From: Tubulanus polymorphus
Lineage: Eukaryota > Nemertea > Palaeonemertea > Tubulaniformes > Tubulanidae
DNA: 64,000 nucleotides
Reading direction: 5' to 3'
Assembly: GCF_964204645.1 (NCBI RefSeq)
Contig: NC_134027.1
Coordinates: 5,940,485-6,004,484 of the forward strand
The notes beneath the pieces are model-generated. The model worked only from the letters and a program-made list of their open reading frames with translations. It was not told the DNA's origin and made no database searches. Positions 11,201 to 26,144 of the stretch are shown piece after piece. The number at the start of each line of letters is the position of its first letter. Within the stretch, counting starts at the first letter, position 1. The position numbers were made by a program, and so were the translations under genes.

Positions 11201-13665
11201 GAGCAGAATTTTGAAATAGGGTCTCATAAAAATGTTTTCTGCATTTTTCACGAAAGTTAAATCGGGAAAATTTCAATTTTTATCAGCCAATCAGGAAGTT
11301 GTGTCTTCCCTGTGATTGGTTTATCTGAAAATATCAGCAGCTGTTCACGTGAATTATCGCGATTTCATTACTGGCGCTTTTGCGCATGACGTCATGTATC
11401 AACACGCGACAATACTTCCGCGTTCGCTACGTGTTCGCTGATTGGCCCATTTACTGGGAAATTCCACAGAAGCCTAATGTGGTTTGTAACAAGCGCTGTG
11501 ATTGGCCCGACCCGATTCTGGCATGGCTTTAGCTTAGTGGGTTCGAATCCCTTGACGCGTGAAGATGATGGATCCTATCAATATCTATTGAAACAAATAA
11601 GTTTCCCGGTTGGGCAGCCGCGGATATCTACCGGAAGTGTTCCGGTTCGATATTTCGAGGTTTCTTTGAATTTTGGAGTGATATTGAAATCCGGTAAATA
11701 CCAGCGGTAGATTGTGAAAACCCATTGCATGATATTTGTATTACTTAATCCACAAAAAGCGTCGGGGCCGCGCCAGGAGTTTTCGTGATTCAAGTAGCGC
11801 AATAGCCTACTTCTTCGTGTTCGTCCACCTCAATTTTCATTCCGCCGATCTCTGACACGGCTCTGTCCCCGTCGGCGCTGTGATTGCACTTTCGTACCAC
11901 CAAAATTTTTTATTTCTATATCAGGGAGGTCTGGAGAATAAAAAAGTCAAAATTTGGATATCACATAGGCCTGATTTCATCGAATAAGTCGACCATGGTC
12001 GTTACGTTTCCGTACTTATTACCACCTAAAACCGTCTGAACAATTTTGTCACAACCAACATTTCGTTTACAGAAATCAGGTTTTCACGTGAACCCGCGGT
12101 ATCGTCTACTGTTTTACTTCCGGGTTTTATTTTAAGATTTAAAATTGTATTTCAAGATCGATTTCTATGAAATCTTTAGTTGATTTGGTGTTTGGGAGGA
12201 ATTTTTATTTGCTCTACAGAAAATTCATCCTTGACAATTGCGCAAGGTTCGCGAAAAAAATGGTTTTACCAAATCGGGTGTATGACCTTGATATGCTAAT
12301 TAGCCATGTGCCCATATTGCAAATTCAATCAAATTTTATTCTGCCAAAAAAATGTTAAATACAATTCGCTTTCCGAGAGTTAATGGTATGCTGCATGGAG
12401 CAAAGTTGTTTTGAGATGGGTCTTGAAGCTATTGAGGTCGAGAGATAACCATCTAGATAGTTCGTGAGAGTTCCAAAGTTTTGAAGAGGCTTCAAGGTAA
12501 TGTCTTGATATTTGGTTTATACGTGTATCTACCCTAGACACATCTTCAGGCCAAAAACTGGCCCTGTCAGATTCAAGATGGCCGACTGGCAGCCATTGTT
12601 GTTCGCCAAAATCAGCACTTTTTACACATTTTTGAAGTTTTCGAGGGAAATTTTGAAGACACTTTTATCAATAACCTTGATAATTCGTATATATTTGTTT
12701 CCCCCGTGGGCCCATCGGCATGAGAAAAATTGGGTCGATCGGACTCAAGATGGCTGTACTGTGACCTTTTTTGTTCCCAAAAATGTCAATTTTGGCCTGA
12801 ATTCTGAGTACTGTAGCTTTCTAATGGTGTGCCATGTTTCATTGCAATTTGTAATGGGTATTCTTTGGAAAGGGATCTTTATATCCGAGAGGGTATTTTT
12901 GACCAGGCAATTACGACGCACTTGGCGGCCATCTTGGAGTCATCAGTACTCATTCGTAGGTGGAAAAAAGTTTTTCCACAGCATATTTGATACTTAAGCA
13001 TATTTTGCTACTATAATCAATTGGAAAGTTGTAGCTCATGACGTTCTATGATCGAGGTGAGTTTCAAGCTCATTGGTTTTTGTTTATGGCCACCAGGGGG
13101 CGTTGAACAATACAATAACTTAGTATTTCTATATTACATTCGTACCTATGCATATTTTGCTACCACAATCAATTGGAAAGTTGTAGCTCATGACATGGTC
13201 TATGATGAGTTTCAAGTGGTGAGTTATGGTGAGTTTCAAGCTCATTGGTTTTTGTATATGGCCACCAGGGGGCGTTGAACAATACAATAACTTCGTATTT
13301 CTATATTACATTCGTTCCTGCTGTCTGTGTTAACACACGATTTTACTATGTAAATGATATTGAGCAGGGAGTGTATATTGATAAATATAACCAACAGATT
13401 ACATCATTTATAAAAAGCAAATCTGACAGGCTGGCCATTGTGCCCCTTGGGGCTCTTGTTACTATTATTATTATTATCATTATGAGTATCTTTACCTAAA
13501 TTACTGAAATATTAATGGTTATAGTAAATTGTCGTAATTATGATTATCATTGTATTTGTATTTGTATAAGTTATTGTTGTCATCATTATTAGAATTGTTA
13601 TTATTATTATTAGTATTAGTATTATTATTATTATTGATTAGCATTACATGTATTATTATTGTTAG

Positions 13666-13699
<34 letters not shown>

Positions 13700-16600
13700 G
13701 ATTAGCATAATTATTATTGTTAGCATTAAGATTATTAATAGCATTATTTATAAGTATCACTGCACATTCCCCTGCACTCTGCACAAGGTTCCAGCGCCTT
13801 AATTTTATGTACAGCCTGTTGGCTTGCACTGGACACCTTGAACCGGTTTACGAAAATAAATTATTATTAAATGTATTAAGAAACTGTAGCAACAGTATTG
13901 AACAGATTACTGGATAGAAATAGCCGGTTAAGGCCAAGTCTCCTGATGTCACATGTTACGATTATCGTTCAAGCTAATGTTTCGATCGCATCTTGATATT
14001 TCTTCAACTCAACTGTTCAAAGGATTTATGGAAATCATTATTTTCATGGTGACTTGTTATGACATTTTATTTCTATTTATTTCAGGGCCTGCTAGTTCAA
14101 GTCAAATATCAGTCGATGGCAATAGTACAGGCTCACTGTGTCATAAGTGTGGAGAGATAGGTAAAATCTTCCTGCTGTTTTTCTTGCGATAGGAAATTGA
14201 GAGGCAATTTTCAACATTCACCTGTTTTCCGAGGTTCAAAAAATTTCTCATAGCTTTCTATGTCCGTATATTGGTTGTAGGCACGAAGAAATGTAAACGT
14301 TGTAAGACTCCATACTGTAGTCCCGTATGTCAAACTGCTGATTGGCCTAGTCACAAATCAGAATGTCAACTCATCAAGTAGGTTCTTATTTCAATATTTA
14401 TTGGTGACATATTTTTAGTGTATGTTATTAATTTATATTACTTATTACTTCCTTAAATTTAACAGAAATAATAATGAGTTTGCTGAGAACTTTGCGCAAC
14501 GATTTGACATAACAGCGGATGAAAGTATACTATCTGTAAGCTGGACTTTTTAGCCTAATCTATTGTGATATTCGATTCATGCTTTCATATCATATTATCA
14601 ACATCATTTTGTGCAAATCTTTGTTGTAGAGTTTCGGGCTTCCGGTTGAATCACCGGGCCCAAAGATCTCGGGTAATCGGTGTGAGCAATCAACAGCAAC
14701 TAATAAGGTGTGACCATCAGAATTTTGGGGGCTGTCACTTGTCATTGATTTCATTGTTATCTTAGATAGGTAAACAATAAGATTCGGTATTTGTTTTTTA
14801 GGGTCGAATAATGGCATCAAAATTAACGAAATCAACAATGCTGAATGATTTTCAATCTCGAGTGGTCGGCTTTGATAATGTGAGACGGTTTTATCTGAGT
14901 ACTCCAGAGCAGTGTGAGAAATTAGATAGATTAACTCGAGAAATGAATGAGGTGAGATTTATTTCTACTTGAATGAAAATAATTGGGTATTTGGTCAAGG
15001 TTCAATCATTGTGGTCCTTGAAAGTCATTGAAATTGTTCGTGGAAAATATGTACCCTGTAATGTATGGCTCTTGGCGATGTTGATGTCAAGGTTTGACAC
15101 GAGCCATATAACAAACATGGGAATATTCTTGAGAAGCATAATCTGTACTGCAATATGCAACATTTCATGTCCTGTTTGACCATCTGACATCTCCTTGAAT
15201 GATAAATTACAGTCATCTTCAATTCATAGGCTTATCGTGGTTCAAAAAAATTAGTCGGAGCTGGCATCTATGTTCCTGAGAGTAAAGAATTGGTTGCTGC
15301 ATCTTACTGCAACGTTTGGTTGCGTGCAGAGGTTATCCGTGTAAATCTAAATGGCACTTTCTCTGTTCGGTTTATTGATACTGGAAGAAAACACGAGTTA
15401 GCTGCTAAAGATATCATGCGTATGCAGCCTCAATTTACACATCTGCCGATTCTTGTAAGTTTTAATGGTCTTATTCTATTTGAATTAAATTGTTTCGGAA
15501 AATGATTGAAATGATTTATTCCATTTCAGACATTTACATGTGGTTTATCGGATGTACGTCCTGTCCTGGAAATGAATTCTCAAGTTGAGAAATTCCTCTT
15601 TAATCAAGAATTCATGTGTAATTTGTTGAGTGAACTATCCGAAATTTACGTCGTTAAGTTATCAGGACGGGATGGGACTGATGTGCGTTTACATTTGGAA
15701 AAAAATGGCATGGTATCTCATTCGAGCAATCGGGAAGAAAATAGGTAAGCTTTTTCTCTCAGATTCGATGCTCTTTGACCTGTGACCAGACTTGAAAGTG
15801 TCATTCGATACTTACGATGTCGATACTTACAATGAAAATTTTCTATAGAAAAAGTGGTGTTGCGAGTTCCCACCAGTACGACAGAAGACAGACCGGTCAG
15901 AACCAACACACGACGAACCTAAGAGAAAATCGTAGGAGCGCAGTGGCAGATAGTTCAAATCAAAATGAGCATTTTTCGGTTGGTTCTTCCATCAAACAAA
16001 GGGCTGTGAATGATCGAGTTGAAATGGCAATATTCGAGCGTAGAGATGTAGGTAATAATGGAACTCTAGGGGAGAAAAAAACTATGAAATACCTAACGGA
16101 ACGTATGCAAAGAGGAGAGGATGTCGTGTTGCTTGTTGTTTACATAAAAGGCAAACAGATATATGCACATTGGGATTGTGAGTATGTGAAAACAGAACTG
16201 GTACCTAAAGTTATCGGAAATATGCAGCAGAAGTATATAATGTCCCATCAAGCACCTGGAGCAAGGTAATCTATACTTTTCTAAGTGGATATTATGTTCC
16301 AAATTGACATCTTTTAAAGAATTTCTGATCAGAGTTTTGCAGAATACGCTAGAATTTTACTTTTAAGATTTCTGACTCAGGTTTCAGACAAATTAATCCG
16401 TGCCTGTTTGGCACGGGCCAAATTAAGCGCAACCAAAAGCGAACGCTGGACCTAATTTTAAAATGTGAAAGCTAAATTCTTTCTTGAAGTGACTCACTCG
16501 ACTCAACCTACCACAGCATCGTTTTATGTGCTCTTTGGTTACGAGTGTGTGAGGACACACGCTGATTAAGCACTGACCAACTTTGGTTGGGGCTGACTTT

Positions 16601-19600
16601 CCAAGTGTCAATTATGGACATAGATGTTGTCTCTGTACATGTATATGTGTGTGCCATATGGTCGGATGCACTGCACGCTAATTGTCGCGGATAAGCTTAC
16701 ATTTCTTTGTATATATTTTGTGGATTTAGGTAGTTAATTGACTGTGTTGTTGGGTTTTAAGGTTTGCTGTTAGTGATTTGGTGGCTGCTAAATCATCTGA
16801 TGGTACTTGGTATCGAGGACAAGTAAAAGCAATCAATAACAATCAGTTTGTTGTGGAATTTATTGATTTTGGAAATTCTGAACTGATTTCCGGTGAACAA
16901 ATCAGACCATTGGATGATGAAGACACAAGTCTCCCCATAATGGCTGTACTTGTTGAAGTGAAAGGATTGAAAGATGGAGCTAATTTAGAATCTCTTAATG
17001 ATCAAACGCTTGTTGGAAAATTGCATGAAAAGCGAAACGATTGTGTTATATTTGATGATTTGATGATTGTCGAGTCAAAACGAACAGTCAAACAGCAATT
17101 TGGAGTAGCACCAGCGGCTGTGAAAGAATTCAAGACTTGCGTTGCTGATTTGATGCTTGGATCTGAAATAACATTAGTCGTAGCTCATATTGAAGATCAA
17201 AAGATTTATGCACAATTGCCAACTAGTGACAATATTGCACGATATTCAATAATTCAAGAAAACTTGAATAAACTAAATGACCTCCCCTCATCGAATCAGG
17301 ACAGGTAATATCTTATTTGTTGTGTTCATTTCTTTACACTAAATGTGCTTGCTTGGTTCATAGTTTGTATCTATTTTGTTAATGCTATGTAAAGCTTTTC
17401 ATGTGCCTGAATTTTCCCTTTGTAACCAATGCCTTATAGGTATACTGTTGGAGATTTGGTGGCCGCTAAATCGTCAGACGGGTCTTGGTATCGAGGACAA
17501 GTAAAAGCGGTCAATAAGAATGCGCTTATCGTGGAATTTGTTGATTTTGGAAATTCTGAACAGGTTTCTTGTGAACTGGTCAGACCTTTGGATGCTGAAG
17601 ATGCAAGTGTCCCTAAAATGGCAGTACTTGTTGAAGTGAAAGGTTTGAAAGATGGAGCTAATTTAGCGTCTCTAAACAATCAAAAACTGTTCGGGAAATT
17701 ACTTGAAAAGCGTGATAATTGTATGATATTTGATGATTTGATGATTGAAGACTCAAATAGAACAGTCAAACAGCAATTTGGAGCAGCAGCACTGCCAGCA
17801 GTGAAATCGTCCCCTCCTATACCACTGACAGTTGTCAAGAAAGAATTCATGAGTTTTGTTGATGATATGGAACTTGGATCAGAATTAACCGTAGTTGTAG
17901 TCTATGTTGAAGGACAGAAGATGTTTGCTCAGTATTTTGAGGAAAATGTTGTTTATCAGTATATGATGCTTCAAGAATCTCTTATTCAGTTTGAAACTAC
18001 CCCTCCCCCAGCTACTCATATCAGGTATATTCTCTATTGCATGGTTTATCTTCGCATTTTTTTTCCTGGGGTTATCTTACAAAAAATATCTTTATTGAAC
18101 GTAGTGTACTTAGAACAGTCCATAAAGGTGGACACATAGAGTCCTCAAACTGAGACTTGTGTAGAATCTCCTGTGCGGTATATACGGTAGATTCAAACTT
18201 GAACAACGAATCTTGTGGGCAACAGTGAAATCACATTACAAAATGGATTTCAAATATTGCTGAGTTGCATTAGCAAGGTTCGATTATAGATGATTGATTA
18301 TGCAGTTCCTTGCTGCAGGGTGCACAGTTTGCTCTAAGTGGACCAGCAATCATAAATCATGCCATATATATATATAATCAGATTAATTTATTAGAATAAA
18401 GATATTTTTACAGGATAAGCCCGAAGTTGAGCATTCAATTCTTTGTGTATCATACACTACGTTCATAATATCGGGGATGTGGATTTTCTGCTTTGTGGCA
18501 GTTCCAGCTTTTTCGAAAGTCCTGCATTATGCTCCCTGGTTCTCATCCTTGAATATTTTTGTGAAATATTTTCCTAATCCTCAAAAAGATATGTACATGT
18601 ACCGTAACTGACTTCTTCTGAATTTTAAGGTTTACTGTTGGAGATTTGGTAGCTGCTAAATCATCAGATGGTGTTTGGTATCGCGGCCAAGTAAAGGCAG
18701 TTGATAATAATCAATTTGTTGTGGAATTTATTGATTTTGGAAATTCTGAACTGATTTCTCGTGAACTGATCAGACCTTTGGATGATGAAGATGCAAGTTT
18801 CCCAAAACTGGCTGTACTTGTTGAAGTGAAAGGTCTGAAAGCTGGAGCTAATTTAGATTGTCTTAAAGATCAAACGCTGGTCGGGAAATTACTTGAAAAG
18901 CGAGACAATTGTGTTATATTTGATGATTTGACAATTGCCGAGTCAAATAGAACGGTCAAACAGCAATTTGGAGTAGCGCTGAAACCGTCCTCCCCTATAC
19001 CAGTGACAGTTGTCAAAAAAGAATTCAAGAGTTTGGTCGATGATATGGAACCTGGATCAGAATTAAACGTAGTTGTAGTCTATGTCGAAGGACAGAAGAT
19101 TTTTGCTCAGTGGATTCAGGAAAACGTTGTTCATCAATATATGAAGCTTCAAGAATCTCTATATCAGTTTGAGTCTACTCCTCCGTCGGCTAATCACATC
19201 AGGTACATTTTTCATTGCATGGGAAAGTCATATAATTCCAATCTATGAATAGGAAATTAATGGCATTCTTCAAAGCTCCTGTTATGTGTATATTTCATAT
19301 TCATAAGCTGAGGTGTTGTAGAATACTGCAGCATATTTCAAATGTTAGGAATATTTGAAGTGCCGGGCACTTAGCTGGCAGTTTGTTTCTTGATAGTACA
19401 GATTTTCCTTGGGGATTATCCCATGAAAATTCCCTATGCAACCTAGTACACTTAATAAAGAATCAAACCCTGTTATTACAAATCTTGTGGCAACAGTGAA
19501 ATCATCTCATTATGATGAATATCAAATAATGCCAAATCAATTGTATAAACAAGGTTCGAGTATAGCATGGTTATGCAGTCGCTCACTGAGTAATTCATTG

Positions 19601-22600
19601 CTTTGCTCTTAGTGGACCAGGAACCCCCAATCATGCAATAATTTCAAATAAGAATATTTTAACAGGATAACACCTGAGTAAGGTAATAATACGCTCATTG
19701 TTATCATGACATGATATACTTTACTTTTTTACCAAGTACATGTACCATAACTGATTTTATTTGAATTTTAAGGTTTACTGTTGGAGATTTGGTTGCTGCT
19801 AAATCATCAGATGGTGGTTGGTATCGAGGACAAGTAAAAGCCGTTGATAACAATCAGTTTGTCATAGAATTTGTTGATTTTGGAAATTCTGAACAGATTT
19901 CTCGTGACCTGATCAGACCTTTGGATGATGAAGATGCAAGTCTCCCTAAAATGGCTGTACTCATTGAAGTGAAAGGTTTGACAGGTGGAGCTAATTTAGA
20001 TTGTCTTAAAGATCAAACACTGGTCGGGAAATTACTTGAAAAGCGAGACAATTGTGTTATATTTGATGATTTGACAATCGCCGAGTCAAATAGAACGGTC
20101 AAACAGCAATTTGGAGCAGCGCCAGCATCTGTGAAATCGTACCCTCCTCTACCACTGACAGTTGTCAAGAAAGAATTCAAGAGTTTTGTTGACGATATGG
20201 AACTTGGATCAGAATTAACCGTAGTTGTTGCGTATATTGAAGGACAAAAGATTTTTGCTCAGTACTATGAGAACAACATTGTTACTCAATATATAAAGCT
20301 TCGGGAATCTCTTGCGCAGTTTGAAACTACCCCTCCACCAGCTAATCACATCAGGTATATTCTCATTGCATTCTTTCTCTTGACTCTTACACTCTCCTTT
20401 CGCTGTGGTTTGCACTGGATGATATGTAAGTCTTCATTAAGTATTTTTCTAATTATAATGATATGGTACACTAACCATGATGGTTTCTTTTGAATTTTTA
20501 GGTTTACTGTTGGAGATTTAGTGGCTGCTAAATCATCAGATGGTGCTTGGTGTCGAGGACAAGTAAAAGAAATCGGTAACAATCAGTTTGTTGTGGAGTT
20601 TGTTGATTTTGGAAATTCTGAACAGGTTTCTTGTGAACTGATCAGACCTTTGGATGATGAAGACGCAAGTCTCCCCAAAATGGCTGTACTTGTTGAAGTA
20701 AAAGGTCTGAAAGATGGAGTTCATTTAGAATGTCTTAACGAACAAGTACTCATCGGAACATTACTTGAAAAACGAGACAATTGTGTTATATTTGATGATT
20801 TGGCCATTTCACAACAAGAGCTCACTGTCAAACAGTTAGTTGAAAACATTCCTGTGGTTGAAAGTCCACCAGTAGCGGAATCATCGACTAATAAGAGGTA
20901 ATTTATCATTTACTGTTTTGTTCATTTTGACATGCAGTTGACATTTTTCATTCCATCAGGTGTTGTGTTGTGTAAGCAATGTATCTATTTTTCCAGTATA
21001 GTGTTAAATATCCACTCAAAAATCCATTTTAGATGAATGTACTCGCAGCTTGATCCCCCAAATGCTAATCTACTCGCTGAGTAACACTAACATCCAATAC
21101 ATCATTTACCGTAGGTCAAAATTGAAGTATTATTGTGATGAACTTGAAATAGGTGATAAAATCGAAGGTGTGCTTTTGTCATTTGTAAATCCTGATGACT
21201 TCTACGTGTTCAATGTCAACGCACAGTTTTTAAAGGAAATGGGAGAATATACTGAGGAACTCACTCAATACTGTAACCAATTAAAAACTGACCCTCAATT
21301 CAGGTAACATACACTTCATTCTACAAAGCCATAGTTAATTCTTGATAGATATCCAAATAGTTAATTCTTAATCACGTAGATATCCAAATACGTCAAAAGT
21401 TGCATCATGATGGTCATAAACAAAACACAATACAATAACTTTGACATCTGAAGTACCACATATAGACTTCAGTTGATTAAGAAAGGGGTAAATAGGTAAT
21501 ATTATTATTATCATTATATCTAGACCTAGTGTAGGGACACTTGTAGCAGCTCGTGACGTGGGATCAAATACTGATGACTGGTACAGAGTGGTTGTTCAGG
21601 AGATCACGAGAGACGGATTTGTGGTGTTTTTCATAGATTTCTGCTGGAAGAAACCGGTTCTGTTAGCTGATATACGCCCGCTTTCAGATAAGTTGCACGA
21701 TTCGAGGTGTTTCGCGATTCCTTGTCAGTTAGTAGGTGTTAAACCGAATAATGCTGAAAGTTGGGATGGTGTCAACTTTCTCGATGTAAACATAGCAGCC
21801 GAAAATGGACTTGATGTTACAGTAGCCGCTAGGCAACCTGATGGGCGATTACTAGTTGATTGTCCTGGGATGAAAAAGTTGATACTCGATCAAAAGTTGG
21901 CGATTTCGTGTGATCGAGGCAATGAACTGAAGGCACCCCCTTATGTTCGGTGTCAGGAGGGAAATAATGAGTCGGAAGGACAACATACTGGGTATGTGTG
22001 CATTCGGTAATCTACCACAACACTTCACCTGATGATGCTGAGCAGGATATTTGGTTTTTCAGACGTTATTTTTATATGATGCAGGGTGATTATTAGATGA
22101 TAATCATTATTAATGATTTTTTCAGGATACAACAGTATACAGAAGTTTATGCAGTATCTGGAGCTCATACGTTAGCAGCTGTTATATGGGTTGAATATCC
22201 ACCTTTATTTGGTCCGCATTATATTGTCATTCAACCTGAAAACAGTCAGCTGAATACCGAATTTGTGGAACAACAGAGAAAATTGTCAGAGATGTATGGC
22301 AACCTGCCACAAAATACTGAATATCAGTGAGTAATTTGTATTTTTTTCTAATTAGTCATGAAGTCTGTATAGTTTACTCTAGCTAACTAGTTTCATGCCT
22401 GGCAATAAATCCAGGATTTGGAAAAAATGTACTCTCAACGACCATCTTACTTATGATTACTGTTTATAAATTTCAGTCCAAATATCGGTGACTATGTGGC
22501 AGTTCAGTATGGACAGCTATCCGAAATCACTTGGAATCGCGGGGTCGTGAAAGAAATCACTGAAAATACAATGAATGTACATTTCATCGATTTTGGAAAT

Positions 22601-25476
22601 TATAAGGAAGTGGACGTTAGTATGTTACATCCTCTGGCGCCATCATTTTACAAACTGCCAATGCGTTCAGCTAGATTAGGGATTCGGGATACAAAACCTG
22701 TCTCGCAGTGGACGGCTGAAATGCATGGTCGACTTGTTGAGATTCTGGCAGGTACATGTGAGACATTCACTATTGAACGAGCCTCTCAGGAGCCAGACGT
22801 GTGCTGGGTAGATTTCATATATGACGGCAATAAATCGCTTCGTCAGAAGTTGATCGACGAAGGTATTGTTGCCGCTTCAGTAGATGGTTCACTTGAAAAT
22901 CTGAAAGAAACAGACCGATTGAAAGCCAACCAAGGCCAAGAAATGAAACTCCCACCAGGCCTGAATGAAGTTGTGGTGATCGATTGTAAAAATCCAGATG
23001 AATTCTATATTCAGTTAAACAATCAGACTCTGATAGATAGATTCAGAGGTATTAATACTAGTATTTTTGAACACTGCACATCAACTGCTGGTCCTTATAC
23101 TCCTGTCATCGGCGAACTAGTGGGTGCAATGTTTATGGAAGATTGGTGTCGTGCCATTGTTCTTGCTGGTGCTCCGGAACCGGGATATTTTAATGTGAAA
23201 TACTTAGATTTTGGAAATGAGAGCATTGTATCTGAGAAAAATATTCGTCCTGCGAGTAGAGCGTTTTTAGATGAACCATATTTTGGAATCAGGTGTAGTC
23301 TAGCTGGTATACATGAACAGGCACAACCTTGGCCAAAGGAGATCATTGATTCGTTCCGTGAAATGCTTTTGGGCAATTTAAACGAGAAAATTACTGTTGA
23401 GTCAGTGACCGGAAACAATGTAACTGTTTATCATGGAAATGATTCGGTTAACTTGAAGTTACAACTTGCACTTGGTGTCGAAAATGCACCGGCACTTATT
23501 CCGAGTAGAGTAACCCTGAAAGATATCGCGAAACCACCAGTGCCGACAGTAATGCCTTTCGAAGTGAGAATCATTAATATTGAATCCCCAGCTACAATTT
23601 ATGTCACAACTGAGGGTAAGTTCAATGTGAACAATGAATAATTGTCCATAGCTTATGGAACAACAGCTTGATGCTTCTTGTTACCTCCTAGCATTGTTTA
23701 TACAGAAGACTCCGCCTAAACCGGAACCAGTCTATCCGGTAATCCATTCAATCCAGTAAAAAGATTTCGGTTATCTACTGTTTTTCAATGCCTGGTACAT
23801 AAATGTCGCCAAATATTCATAAAGACAAGTCTCCATGAACTATTGATATCGCCTAGTCCGGTATCGCTCTATTTGGTAGAATTTGGACTTCGTTTCTGTT
23901 CATTCTGCGTCTAAACCGCTAGACGTAACAGCTTTTTTCCTACAATATTGAATCATACTACAATACTATTGATCTTCCATCTCTGTTGGTAATTCATATT
24001 AAGTCCTATGTTAAGTACTACTGCACGCTCATGATTTAAATTGGCAATAGTTCTCTTTATGCAAGTTCATCATGTGTGAACAAGTACTGAGGAAAGTGTT
24101 GCAGAGAATCATGAAATGTCAAGTTTGTGTCCGGTATATTAAATAAGGAAGCAAACCATCGGTGGTTGGCTACAGTCTGATCTTACGAGGCTCAATAATG
24201 AGCCTCAAGAATCACTGAGTGGCTCAATAGTTTCCTATCTTTGTTCATTGATTTTCGCACTTTTTTAAACCAATAACTGCCTAATTCGGTAGAAAAGTTA
24301 AGCTCCCAACTGTACCAGTTTAGGCTGAGTCTACTGCAGTATCATAGTCTACATTATGAAATGTCATATTTTAGCTTTGGTATCAAACAGTAATCAGATT
24401 GTTGAACATTTGACTGAAAGGATTACCAAGATGCCATCCACAAGATCATATAAACCCATGGTGGGTGATATGTGTGCTGCGTTAAACACTGGTGAGCCTT
24501 CACTCAATAATGTCTTTATTCTGAAATACTCTTGATAGCTCCATAAATTTTAAGTTGGCTGTTCTGTTCAGGTGCCGAGACATTATGGAATCGTGCTGAA
24601 TTACAGGACATTTCACCCGATGGAGAGTACACCGTGTTCTATATTGATTACGCTTATCAAGAGAAATTACCATTAACTCACCTTAAGCCATTACCAAATG
24701 AGTTTCTCAAACAACCACTTGGTTATTACCAAGTAAAACTCTCAGGTGAGTGAAATGTAGGGTAATCTATGAAGTCCTTTACAATTGTCTTTTTCCTCTT
24801 TAATTCATTTCACATTGGTATTAGGATTCTATTTTCTATTTAAAATCCTGAATTTACCTCGACTTTCTAGATATATTTATAAACATAATGATATTATAAA
24901 GTTAAAGTTTGTTTTTTTTTTGTTTCTTTTTTTTTCGTAGGAATAGAAGCACCGACAGGAGGCTGGAATTCAGATGCAGTCTTGTTAATTCTTAAACACA
25001 GTCAAGAAGCATCACTCAAAGTGACTTGTATTGTGGAGACAGAGGCAGCCAATTCACTCGATGTTACCATGACAGTCAATGGCCAGTCACTTAGTACGTA
25101 TGGAAATAAAGTAAAAATACAAATGACACAATTTAGAAATCCAACATTTGAACTGTTGCAATCAGTTTTTGTCTCTTTATTTGTCTATGCAAAAGTGGTT
25201 ATCTTTGGAAATTTGATCGTTCAATGTAGTAGATGAGTTTTTCCAGGGAATTCTACACCATGATATGTTATCAGAATATTTAATGATTTTAGATACTACT
25301 GAGTCAATATTATTGTTTTTTCTTTCTTGTGAAAAGGTGACTTATTGGTACAGAAAGATTTAGCTACACCTTCTGTTCTGTCTGATGAGGAAGATGATAT
25401 TGATAGACAAATTGCTGTTCGTATGGCGCAATTGGAGGAACTCAAGCAGCGCAAATTGAGAAAACTGGCAAACTGA
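8259..25476 (+). CDS. RRM-MYND-multi-Tudor protein, TDRD1-like
   Basis: Germline-type scaffold. TDRD1/Vreteno-class proteins read symmetric dimethylarginine on Piwi proteins in nuage; that role is inferred here. Exons: 8259-8278, 8403-8501, 9259-9420, 9565-9703, 9938-10057, 10138-10190, 10419-10609, 14086-14160, 14281-14377, 14466-14535, 14630-14707, 14802-14951, 15230-15454, 15530-15744, 15849-16265, 16762-17304, 17440-18024, 18630-19202, 19773-20354, 20502-20897, 21115-21303, 21524-21991, 22126-22326, 22477-23615, 24375-24491, 24572-24745, 24941-25093, 25337-25476. The sum is 7371 bases, 2456 residues, with phases agreeing throughout. Domains: RRM about 54-130 (LFIGNV, KIGFLTY); MYND finger 280-315 with all Cys/His ligands; ten Tudors, in exons 13-14, 16, 17, 18, 19, 20, 22, 24 (two) and 25-26; a charged C-terminal helix. 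ATG 8259 was chosen because exons 1 and 2 join in frame (MDPRNSSLAAWDP). Confidence 0.92.
8634..8978. mobile_element. Foldback element with tRNA-like B boxes, intron 2 of the Tudor gene
   Basis: The left arm (about 8634-8765) is largely the reverse complement of the right arm (about 8840-8978). Shared pieces include GACCGAGTGCGCAG, GCAGGGATTCGAACC and CCAATCAGAT. Each arm holds GGTTCGAATCCCTG (right arm) or its complement, which looks like a tRNA T-loop / Pol III B box. The structure is either a foldback MITE or two tRNA-derived SINE pieces in head-to-head orientation. Confidence 0.75.
12998..13317. repeat. Tandem direct repeat, about 150-bp unit, two copies
   Basis: Copy 1 starts near 12998 and copy 2 near 13150. 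Both run from CATATTTTGCTAC through AATTGGAAAGTTGTAGCTCA and GGCCACCAGGGGGCGTTGAA to ATTACATTCGT. Copy 2 has a small internal insertion. A diverged relative (GAGTTTCAAGGTCATCGG) occurs at about 9029 in intron 2, so the unit belongs to a dispersed repeat family. Confidence 0.8.
13455..13740. repeat. (ATT)n / (TTA)n microsatellite tract
   Basis: Several imperfect runs of ATT/TTA triplets interrupted by GTTAGCATTA-type units, inside Tudor-gene intron 7. Confidence 0.85.
16762..20897 (+). repeat. Five-unit tandem Tudor exon array (Tudors 2-6)
   Basis: Five consecutive exons (16762-17304, 17440-18024, 18630-19202, 19773-20354, 20502-20897) encode nearly the same Tudor domain. Each has GDLVAAKSSDG (SDLVAAKSSDG in the first), a W-Y/C-R-G-Q-V-K stretch, a DFGNSE core and a RPLDDEDAS-like tail. 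Every exon begins with G completing an AG|G codon and all share phase 2 at both ends, so copies add without frameshift. The first four also carry a second segment (V-E-G-Q-K-I-F-A-Q-like) of about 55 residues. In the fifth copy that segment sits in a separate exon (21115-21303). Neighbouring Tudors in the protein are far more diverged, so the array is young. Confidence 0.95.
23640..24374 (+). other. Intron 24 of the Tudor gene with dispersed repeat
   Basis: The intron after the large double-Tudor exon. Part of it (about 23860-24130, including GCCTAGTCCGGTATCGC and AGTCCTATGTTAAGTACTAC) is an inverted, diverged copy of sequence in intron 7 (about 10730-11020). No coding signal. Confidence 0.6.
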
Positions 25477-25733: not shown

Positions 25734-26144
25734 CAGGCGCGGATCTAGGGAGGGGGCCTCCCTCCTTTAAGTGAAGATCGTTTTTTTTTCGACCGACCTC
25801 CCGCCACTTGCTTAATATTCACGCTGCGCTGGGAAAGGGGAAAGTATTTGTCATGAATTCTTGCCTCAGAATGCAGGAAATGGCCCCAAAACAGTTAAAT
25901 TTCCAAAATTTTCCGCCACTTGCTTAATATTCACGCTGCGCTGGGAAAGGGGAAAGTATTTGTCATGAATTCTTGCCTCAGAATGCAGGAAATGGCCCCA
26001 AAACAGTTAAATTTCCAAAATTTTGGGGCGGTGTGAAGCGTAGGAACGTCTCGCGCCTACGCCACTCGGTGTCAATACAGTATCATCATAGCTACATTAA
26101 TTAGGTGTCCCCCCCCCCTAAATTTTGCTCTAGATCCGCCCCTG
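25734..26144. mobile_element. MITE with 15-bp TIRs and TGCAT target duplication
   Basis: The left end CAGGCGCGGATCTAG and the inverted right end CAGGGGCGGATCTAG differ at one position. TGCAT flanks both sides (25729-25733 and 26145-26149), consistent with a 5-bp target-site duplication. CAGGGGCGGATC-type ends are common among non-autonomous DNA transposons of invertebrates. The interior contains two tandem copies of a 112-bp unit. Confidence 0.85.
25801..26024. repeat. 112-bp tandem duplication inside the MITE
   Basis: The unit beginning CCGCCACTTGCTTAATATTC at 25801 is repeated essentially without change from 25913. It includes GGGAAAGTATTTGTCATGAA and ends in CCAAAATTTT. Confidence 0.95.

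Follow-up and report, generated by a model that had tools for sequence, protein, structure and literature searches.

How did a protein with ten Tudor domains come to contain five that are much alike, and does their number serve the binding of a partner? The question is raised by a gene of the nemertean Tubulanus polymorphus, which lies within the 64,000-nucleotide stretch of contig NC_134027.1 analysed here (the window, whose positions are used below unless a genome coordinate is given). Taken as a whole, the locus is best explained as an exon expansion in a TDRD1-type scaffold, which would have produced a multivalent PIWI-binding stretch, and we regard this explanation as probable.

Gene Structure and Domain Organization

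The splice model of the gene was built by hand and is free of internal stops, while the 5' end of the gene was not found. According to PF00567 matches and the model, the protein comprises ten Tudor domains, namely TD1, the array TD2-TD6, and TD7-TD10, with a MYND finger in frame on their N-terminal side. The features are as follows.

14086..14377 (14086-14160, 14281-14377), + strand: zf-MYND, two exons; Pfam PF01753 (E 1.2e-9) and splice model
14466..15744, + strand: exons up to and encoding TD1, with a degenerate cage (WLR, FIDTGR); gene model and alignment
15849..16265, + strand: linker and N-terminal half of TD2, one exon; gene model and alignment
16762..17304, + strand: u1, core of TD2 and N-terminal half of TD3; Tudor PF00567, E 2.1e-14
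17440..18024, + strand: u2, core of TD3 and N-terminal half of TD4
18630..19202, + strand: u3, core of TD4 and N-terminal half of TD5
19773..20354, + strand: u4, core of TD5 and N-terminal half of TD6; evidence includes an AlphaFold model of the exon
20502..20897, + strand: u5, core of TD6 only, followed by an unrelated linker; WCR, second cage aromatic lost
21115..21991, + strand: TD7, two exons; phase-2 intron before the core, placed as in the array
22126..23615, + strand: TD8 and TD9; phase-2 intron before the core in TD8, none in TD9
24361..25476, + strand: TD10 and C-terminus; Tudor match; exon borders approximate, stop codon at ~25474-25476

Several extended (T3) Tudors thus stand C-terminal to a MYND finger, which is the layout of TDRD1 (PMC12147562; PMC9002060). 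Judged by its zf-MYND and ten Tudors, the array gene is a predicted TDRD1-type germline gene, encoding a putative scaffold of the piRNA pathway.

The original prediction of five consecutive exons at 16762-20897 was confirmed exactly, with AG/GT borders on each exon and phase 2-2 in all five in the splice model, and it is likewise supported that one symmetric exon was multiplied in tandem without loss of the frame. These exons were described as coding for Tudor domains, which is correct for one core each; however, u1 to u4 additionally carry the N-terminal half of the next Tudor, which u5 does not. The array exons are therefore offset from the domains, starting just 5' of a Tudor core whose N-terminal half is encoded by the preceding exon. 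Since a phase-2 intron is identically placed before the cores of TD7 and TD8, the symmetric exon appears to be older than the array, and this older phase-2 intron, lying just before the cores of TD2-TD8, made duplication of a whole exon possible without a frame shift. When the 267.8-Mb assembly was searched at the DNA level with one exon as query, no copies beyond the five places of the array were retrieved.

By sequence, the array units are nearest to the extended Tudors of TDRD1 and TDRKH, and the TDRD1 extended Tudors are among their best relatives in both sequence and fold. An AlphaFold model made from the translation of exon u4 (mean pLDDT 72) superimposes on single Tudor cores with an rmsd of ~1 and on mouse TDRD1 TD3 with a Z of 9.5 and an rmsd of 7.6 over 114 aligned residues; so high an rmsd is in keeping with a fragment comprising less than a whole extended Tudor. 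These matches support the core fold of a Tudor flanked by SN-like halves, of which the u4 exon supplies the core and the C-terminal half.

Divergence among the Array Copies

Self-alignment of the region matches the copies to one another with E-values of 1e-94 to 0, the alignments being 300-640 bases long and 83-87% identical. At the protein level, the array cores are 74-90% identical (mean 79% over ~102 aligned residues; 71-91% over 117 codons), while the protein's remaining five Tudors are strongly diverged, as had been predicted (23-31% alike, mean 27%). As a comparison set, twelve Tudors from a paralogous gene on C2 have a mean protein identity of 32% (range 24-42%). This multi-Tudor gene (G000:C2:2662309-2673192) encodes at least 13 Tudors, most of them in one open frame of 3,029 residues, and is probably a TDRD6/Tudor-like paralogue.

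The copies had been called nearly identical, which overstates their likeness, as the nucleotide identity of the cores is 79-93%, with core dS at 0.19 between u3 and u4 and at 0.27-0.46 in the remaining pairs. The dN/dS of the cores, 0.23-0.49, indicates purifying selection on the array protein. Among u2-u4, dS over the whole exon is 0.26-0.35. Between introns u2-u3 and u3-u4, ~200 of 600 bases are alignable, at 70% identity including gaps, and a further 37 bases at the 3' end match at 86%; the alignable part has a mismatch-only distance of ~0.28, and most of the intron sequence no longer aligns. The homologous part is the following.

18206..18399, + strand: part of intron u2-u3 homologous to part of intron u3-u4 (19478-19670), 70% identical

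A dispersed repeat within the introns was ruled out, because the shared ~200-bp part has just one further match in the genome, of 46 bp, so that it represents duplicated intron. Judged from the divergence between copies alone, the expansion is not very recent, since the silent divergence of u2-u4 is near the intron distance, and the claim of recency is unsupported. For the same reason, silent sites in the exons show no greater homogenisation than the introns do. The array is a real and moderately old domain expansion, whose apparent near identity is due largely to common descent and purifying selection.

Origin of the Array and Exchange between Copies

Exons u2, u3, and u4 have their tails in common, whereas u1 and u5 have outer flanks of their own; the tail of u1 is strongly diverged from those of u2-u4 beyond approximately codon 150 (dS >1, against ~0.4 in its core), and the 3' ends of the introns preceding u3, u4, and u5 are similar (0.61-0.69). 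These patterns suggest that u3 and u4 arose as copies of a u2 unit of exon plus downstream intron, with u1 and u5 as older neighbours on either side, and unequal crossing-over between homologous cores would be the simplest mechanism. Afterwards, silent sites and introns diverged at similar rates with the protein under purifying selection, as dS, intron divergence, and dN/dS show. The hybrid exons expected from a single crossover between u2-type and u5-type cores were also sought, and the direction fits but is non-significant for u3 and u4 against u2 and u5 (p 0.30-0.54).

Alternatively, the copies might be kept alike by active concerted evolution, in which unequal crossing-over or gene conversion continues and copy number varies between individuals. 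Several patterns point to exchange: u4 is nearer to u3 in the core and to u2 in the tail (permutation p of the maximum chi-square test 0.0005, or ~0.007 when corrected for 14 tests; p 0.02-0.10 on third positions), core and tail trees conflict with bootstrap values of 74-75 versus 92, matches between copies are clustered over all sites (SSQ p 0.003-0.008), and the contrast of core and tail dS in u1 can be counted in the same direction. However, the run test on silent sites alone is non-significant (p 0.11), and the same mosaic could be obtained from unequal core and tail rates in u2 and u3. Moreover, no sign of recent exon-specific homogenisation is seen, as dS among u2-u4 is near the intron divergence, and no pair of cores is more than 93% identical, which argues against active homogenisation. 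The mosaic patterns suggest past exchange between copies, while ongoing homogenisation, as originally proposed, is not supported, given this agreement of silent and intron divergence and the weak signals at silent and third sites (p 0.02-0.11); as a standing process it is possible but unlikely. In the literature searched, we found no case of concerted evolution or exon duplication in a Tudor gene.

Aromatic Cage and PIWI Partners

Cage residues were judged by aligning the sequences with TDRD1 extended Tudors from mouse and human. All five array copies have lost the first cage aromatic and read AAK-SSDG where relatives have F or Y before S-E/G-D-D/G. The second is kept in u1-u4 (WYR) and lost in u5, while the third and fourth aromatics and the Asn are retained in the array (EF-I/V-DFGN). 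None of u1-u5 therefore has, by alignment, the four cage aromatics plus Asn of an sDMA reader. All twelve of the C2 Tudors compared have the first aromatic; for the second aromatic they give no independent information, since they were chosen by a WYR/YYR motif. Most Tudors in the C2 gene retain a complete cage.

The genome contains three PIWI genes whose N-termini are RG-rich, with 8 RG in one and ~6 in each of the others, as counted from exon pieces read off raw frames.

G000:C2:393000-403636: PIWI gene, RG-rich N-terminus
G000:C2:20257261-20268800: PIWI gene, RG-rich N-terminus
G000:C4:24722076-24732800: PIWI gene, RG-rich N-terminus

Besides these, two AGO-type genes on C8 and one AGO-like gene on C1 were observed. 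PRMT5 is also present in the genome, and together with the three RG-rich PIWI genes it makes scaffolding of PIWI plausible. The suggestion that the array serves avidity for a PIWI protein with multiple arginine motifs thus has candidate ligands, but the cage is incomplete in every copy, and the absence of the first aromatic throughout weakens the sDMA version of it, in which more copies mean tighter binding. In our preferred explanation, the five similar extended Tudors would form a multivalent stretch in germ granules, binding PIWI proteins at their arginine-rich N-termini, and given the missing first aromatic, binding by each domain may be weak or not strictly dependent on arginine methylation.

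A more specific version would make the array a multivalent, methylation-independent arginine reader, in which a TDRKH-like founder already without the first aromatic was multiplied to five, RG-rich PIWI N-termini are held before or without methylation, and copy number sets the affinity within the germ granule. Binding of unmethylated PIWI has been proposed for Tudors whose cage is not intact (PMC10711660), and mouse TDRKH does not depend on arginine methylation for its binding to MIWI (PMC10681313). In the alignment, human TDRKH (APLP) is without the first cage aromatic, as is the array. We nevertheless hold this specific version to be doubtful.

Comparison with Known Tudor Proteins

TDRD1 (Tdrd1/MTR-1; fly Kotsubu, CG9925) shares with the array gene a MYND finger at the N-terminus and, after it, extended Tudors in tandem. 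However, four Tudors are found in vertebrate Tdrd1 and in fly Kotsubu (PMC9002060), compared with ten in the array gene, five of which form an amplified set without the first cage aromatic. The published TDRD1 family cluster itself lacks phylogenetic resolution (PMC12147562). TDRKH/TDRD2 (Papi) differs from the array gene in possessing a single Tudor with KH domains and no MYND finger. The TDRD6/Tudor-like scaffolds, including cnidarian proteins and the C2 gene, are similar to the array gene in carrying many extended Tudors per chain; animal proteins have from one to 19 T3 Tudors, the latter number being reached in cnidarians, and duplication and exon shuffling were presumed as the source (PMC12147562). 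In the C2 gene, the low identities given above belong to domains encoded mostly in one long exon, whereas the five much more similar Tudors of the array occupy separate exons.

Tudor multiplication is thus already known in animals, and the array adds an ordinary exon-based domain expansion; its sole unusual part is the set of five similar Tudors with a common cage loss. As such, it offers a clean natural case for the role of repeated similar Tudor copies in a piRNA scaffold, with a built-in control in the same genome, as the C2 gene has diverged domains with mostly complete cages. Should the incomplete cage read arginine that is unmethylated, valency and methylation reading would be uncoupled in the array.

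Alternative Splicing and Assembly

The five exons might instead be alternative cassettes, spliced alternatively or mutually exclusively and never all present in one protein. Duplicated symmetric exons commonly underlie mutually exclusive splicing, and here any array exon could be skipped in frame, as all five are phase 2-2 and have lengths that are multiples of three. However, any of u1-u4 used without u5 would leave an orphan N-terminal half beside that of TD7, and complete extended Tudors arise only from chains ending in u5, although u1-u4 could still be skipped in frame with u5 kept. Mutually exclusive use is disfavoured because serial splicing ending in u5 is the sole order without a leftover half-domain, and we consider cassettes improbable.

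Assembly errors are common in tandem repeats, but false duplication of a single exon was rejected as very unlikely, because the cores differ by 7-21% and the introns are unlike in length and content, and each copy has preserved its open frame and splice sites.

Two other repeats were observed in the window. Just 3' of its stop codon, a 112-bp unit is present as a perfect tandem duplication (100% identity, 25801-26024), which is much younger than the array of exons. A stretch of ~160 bp lying 5' of the MYND exons can be recognized by eye twice in similar form (13000-13330).
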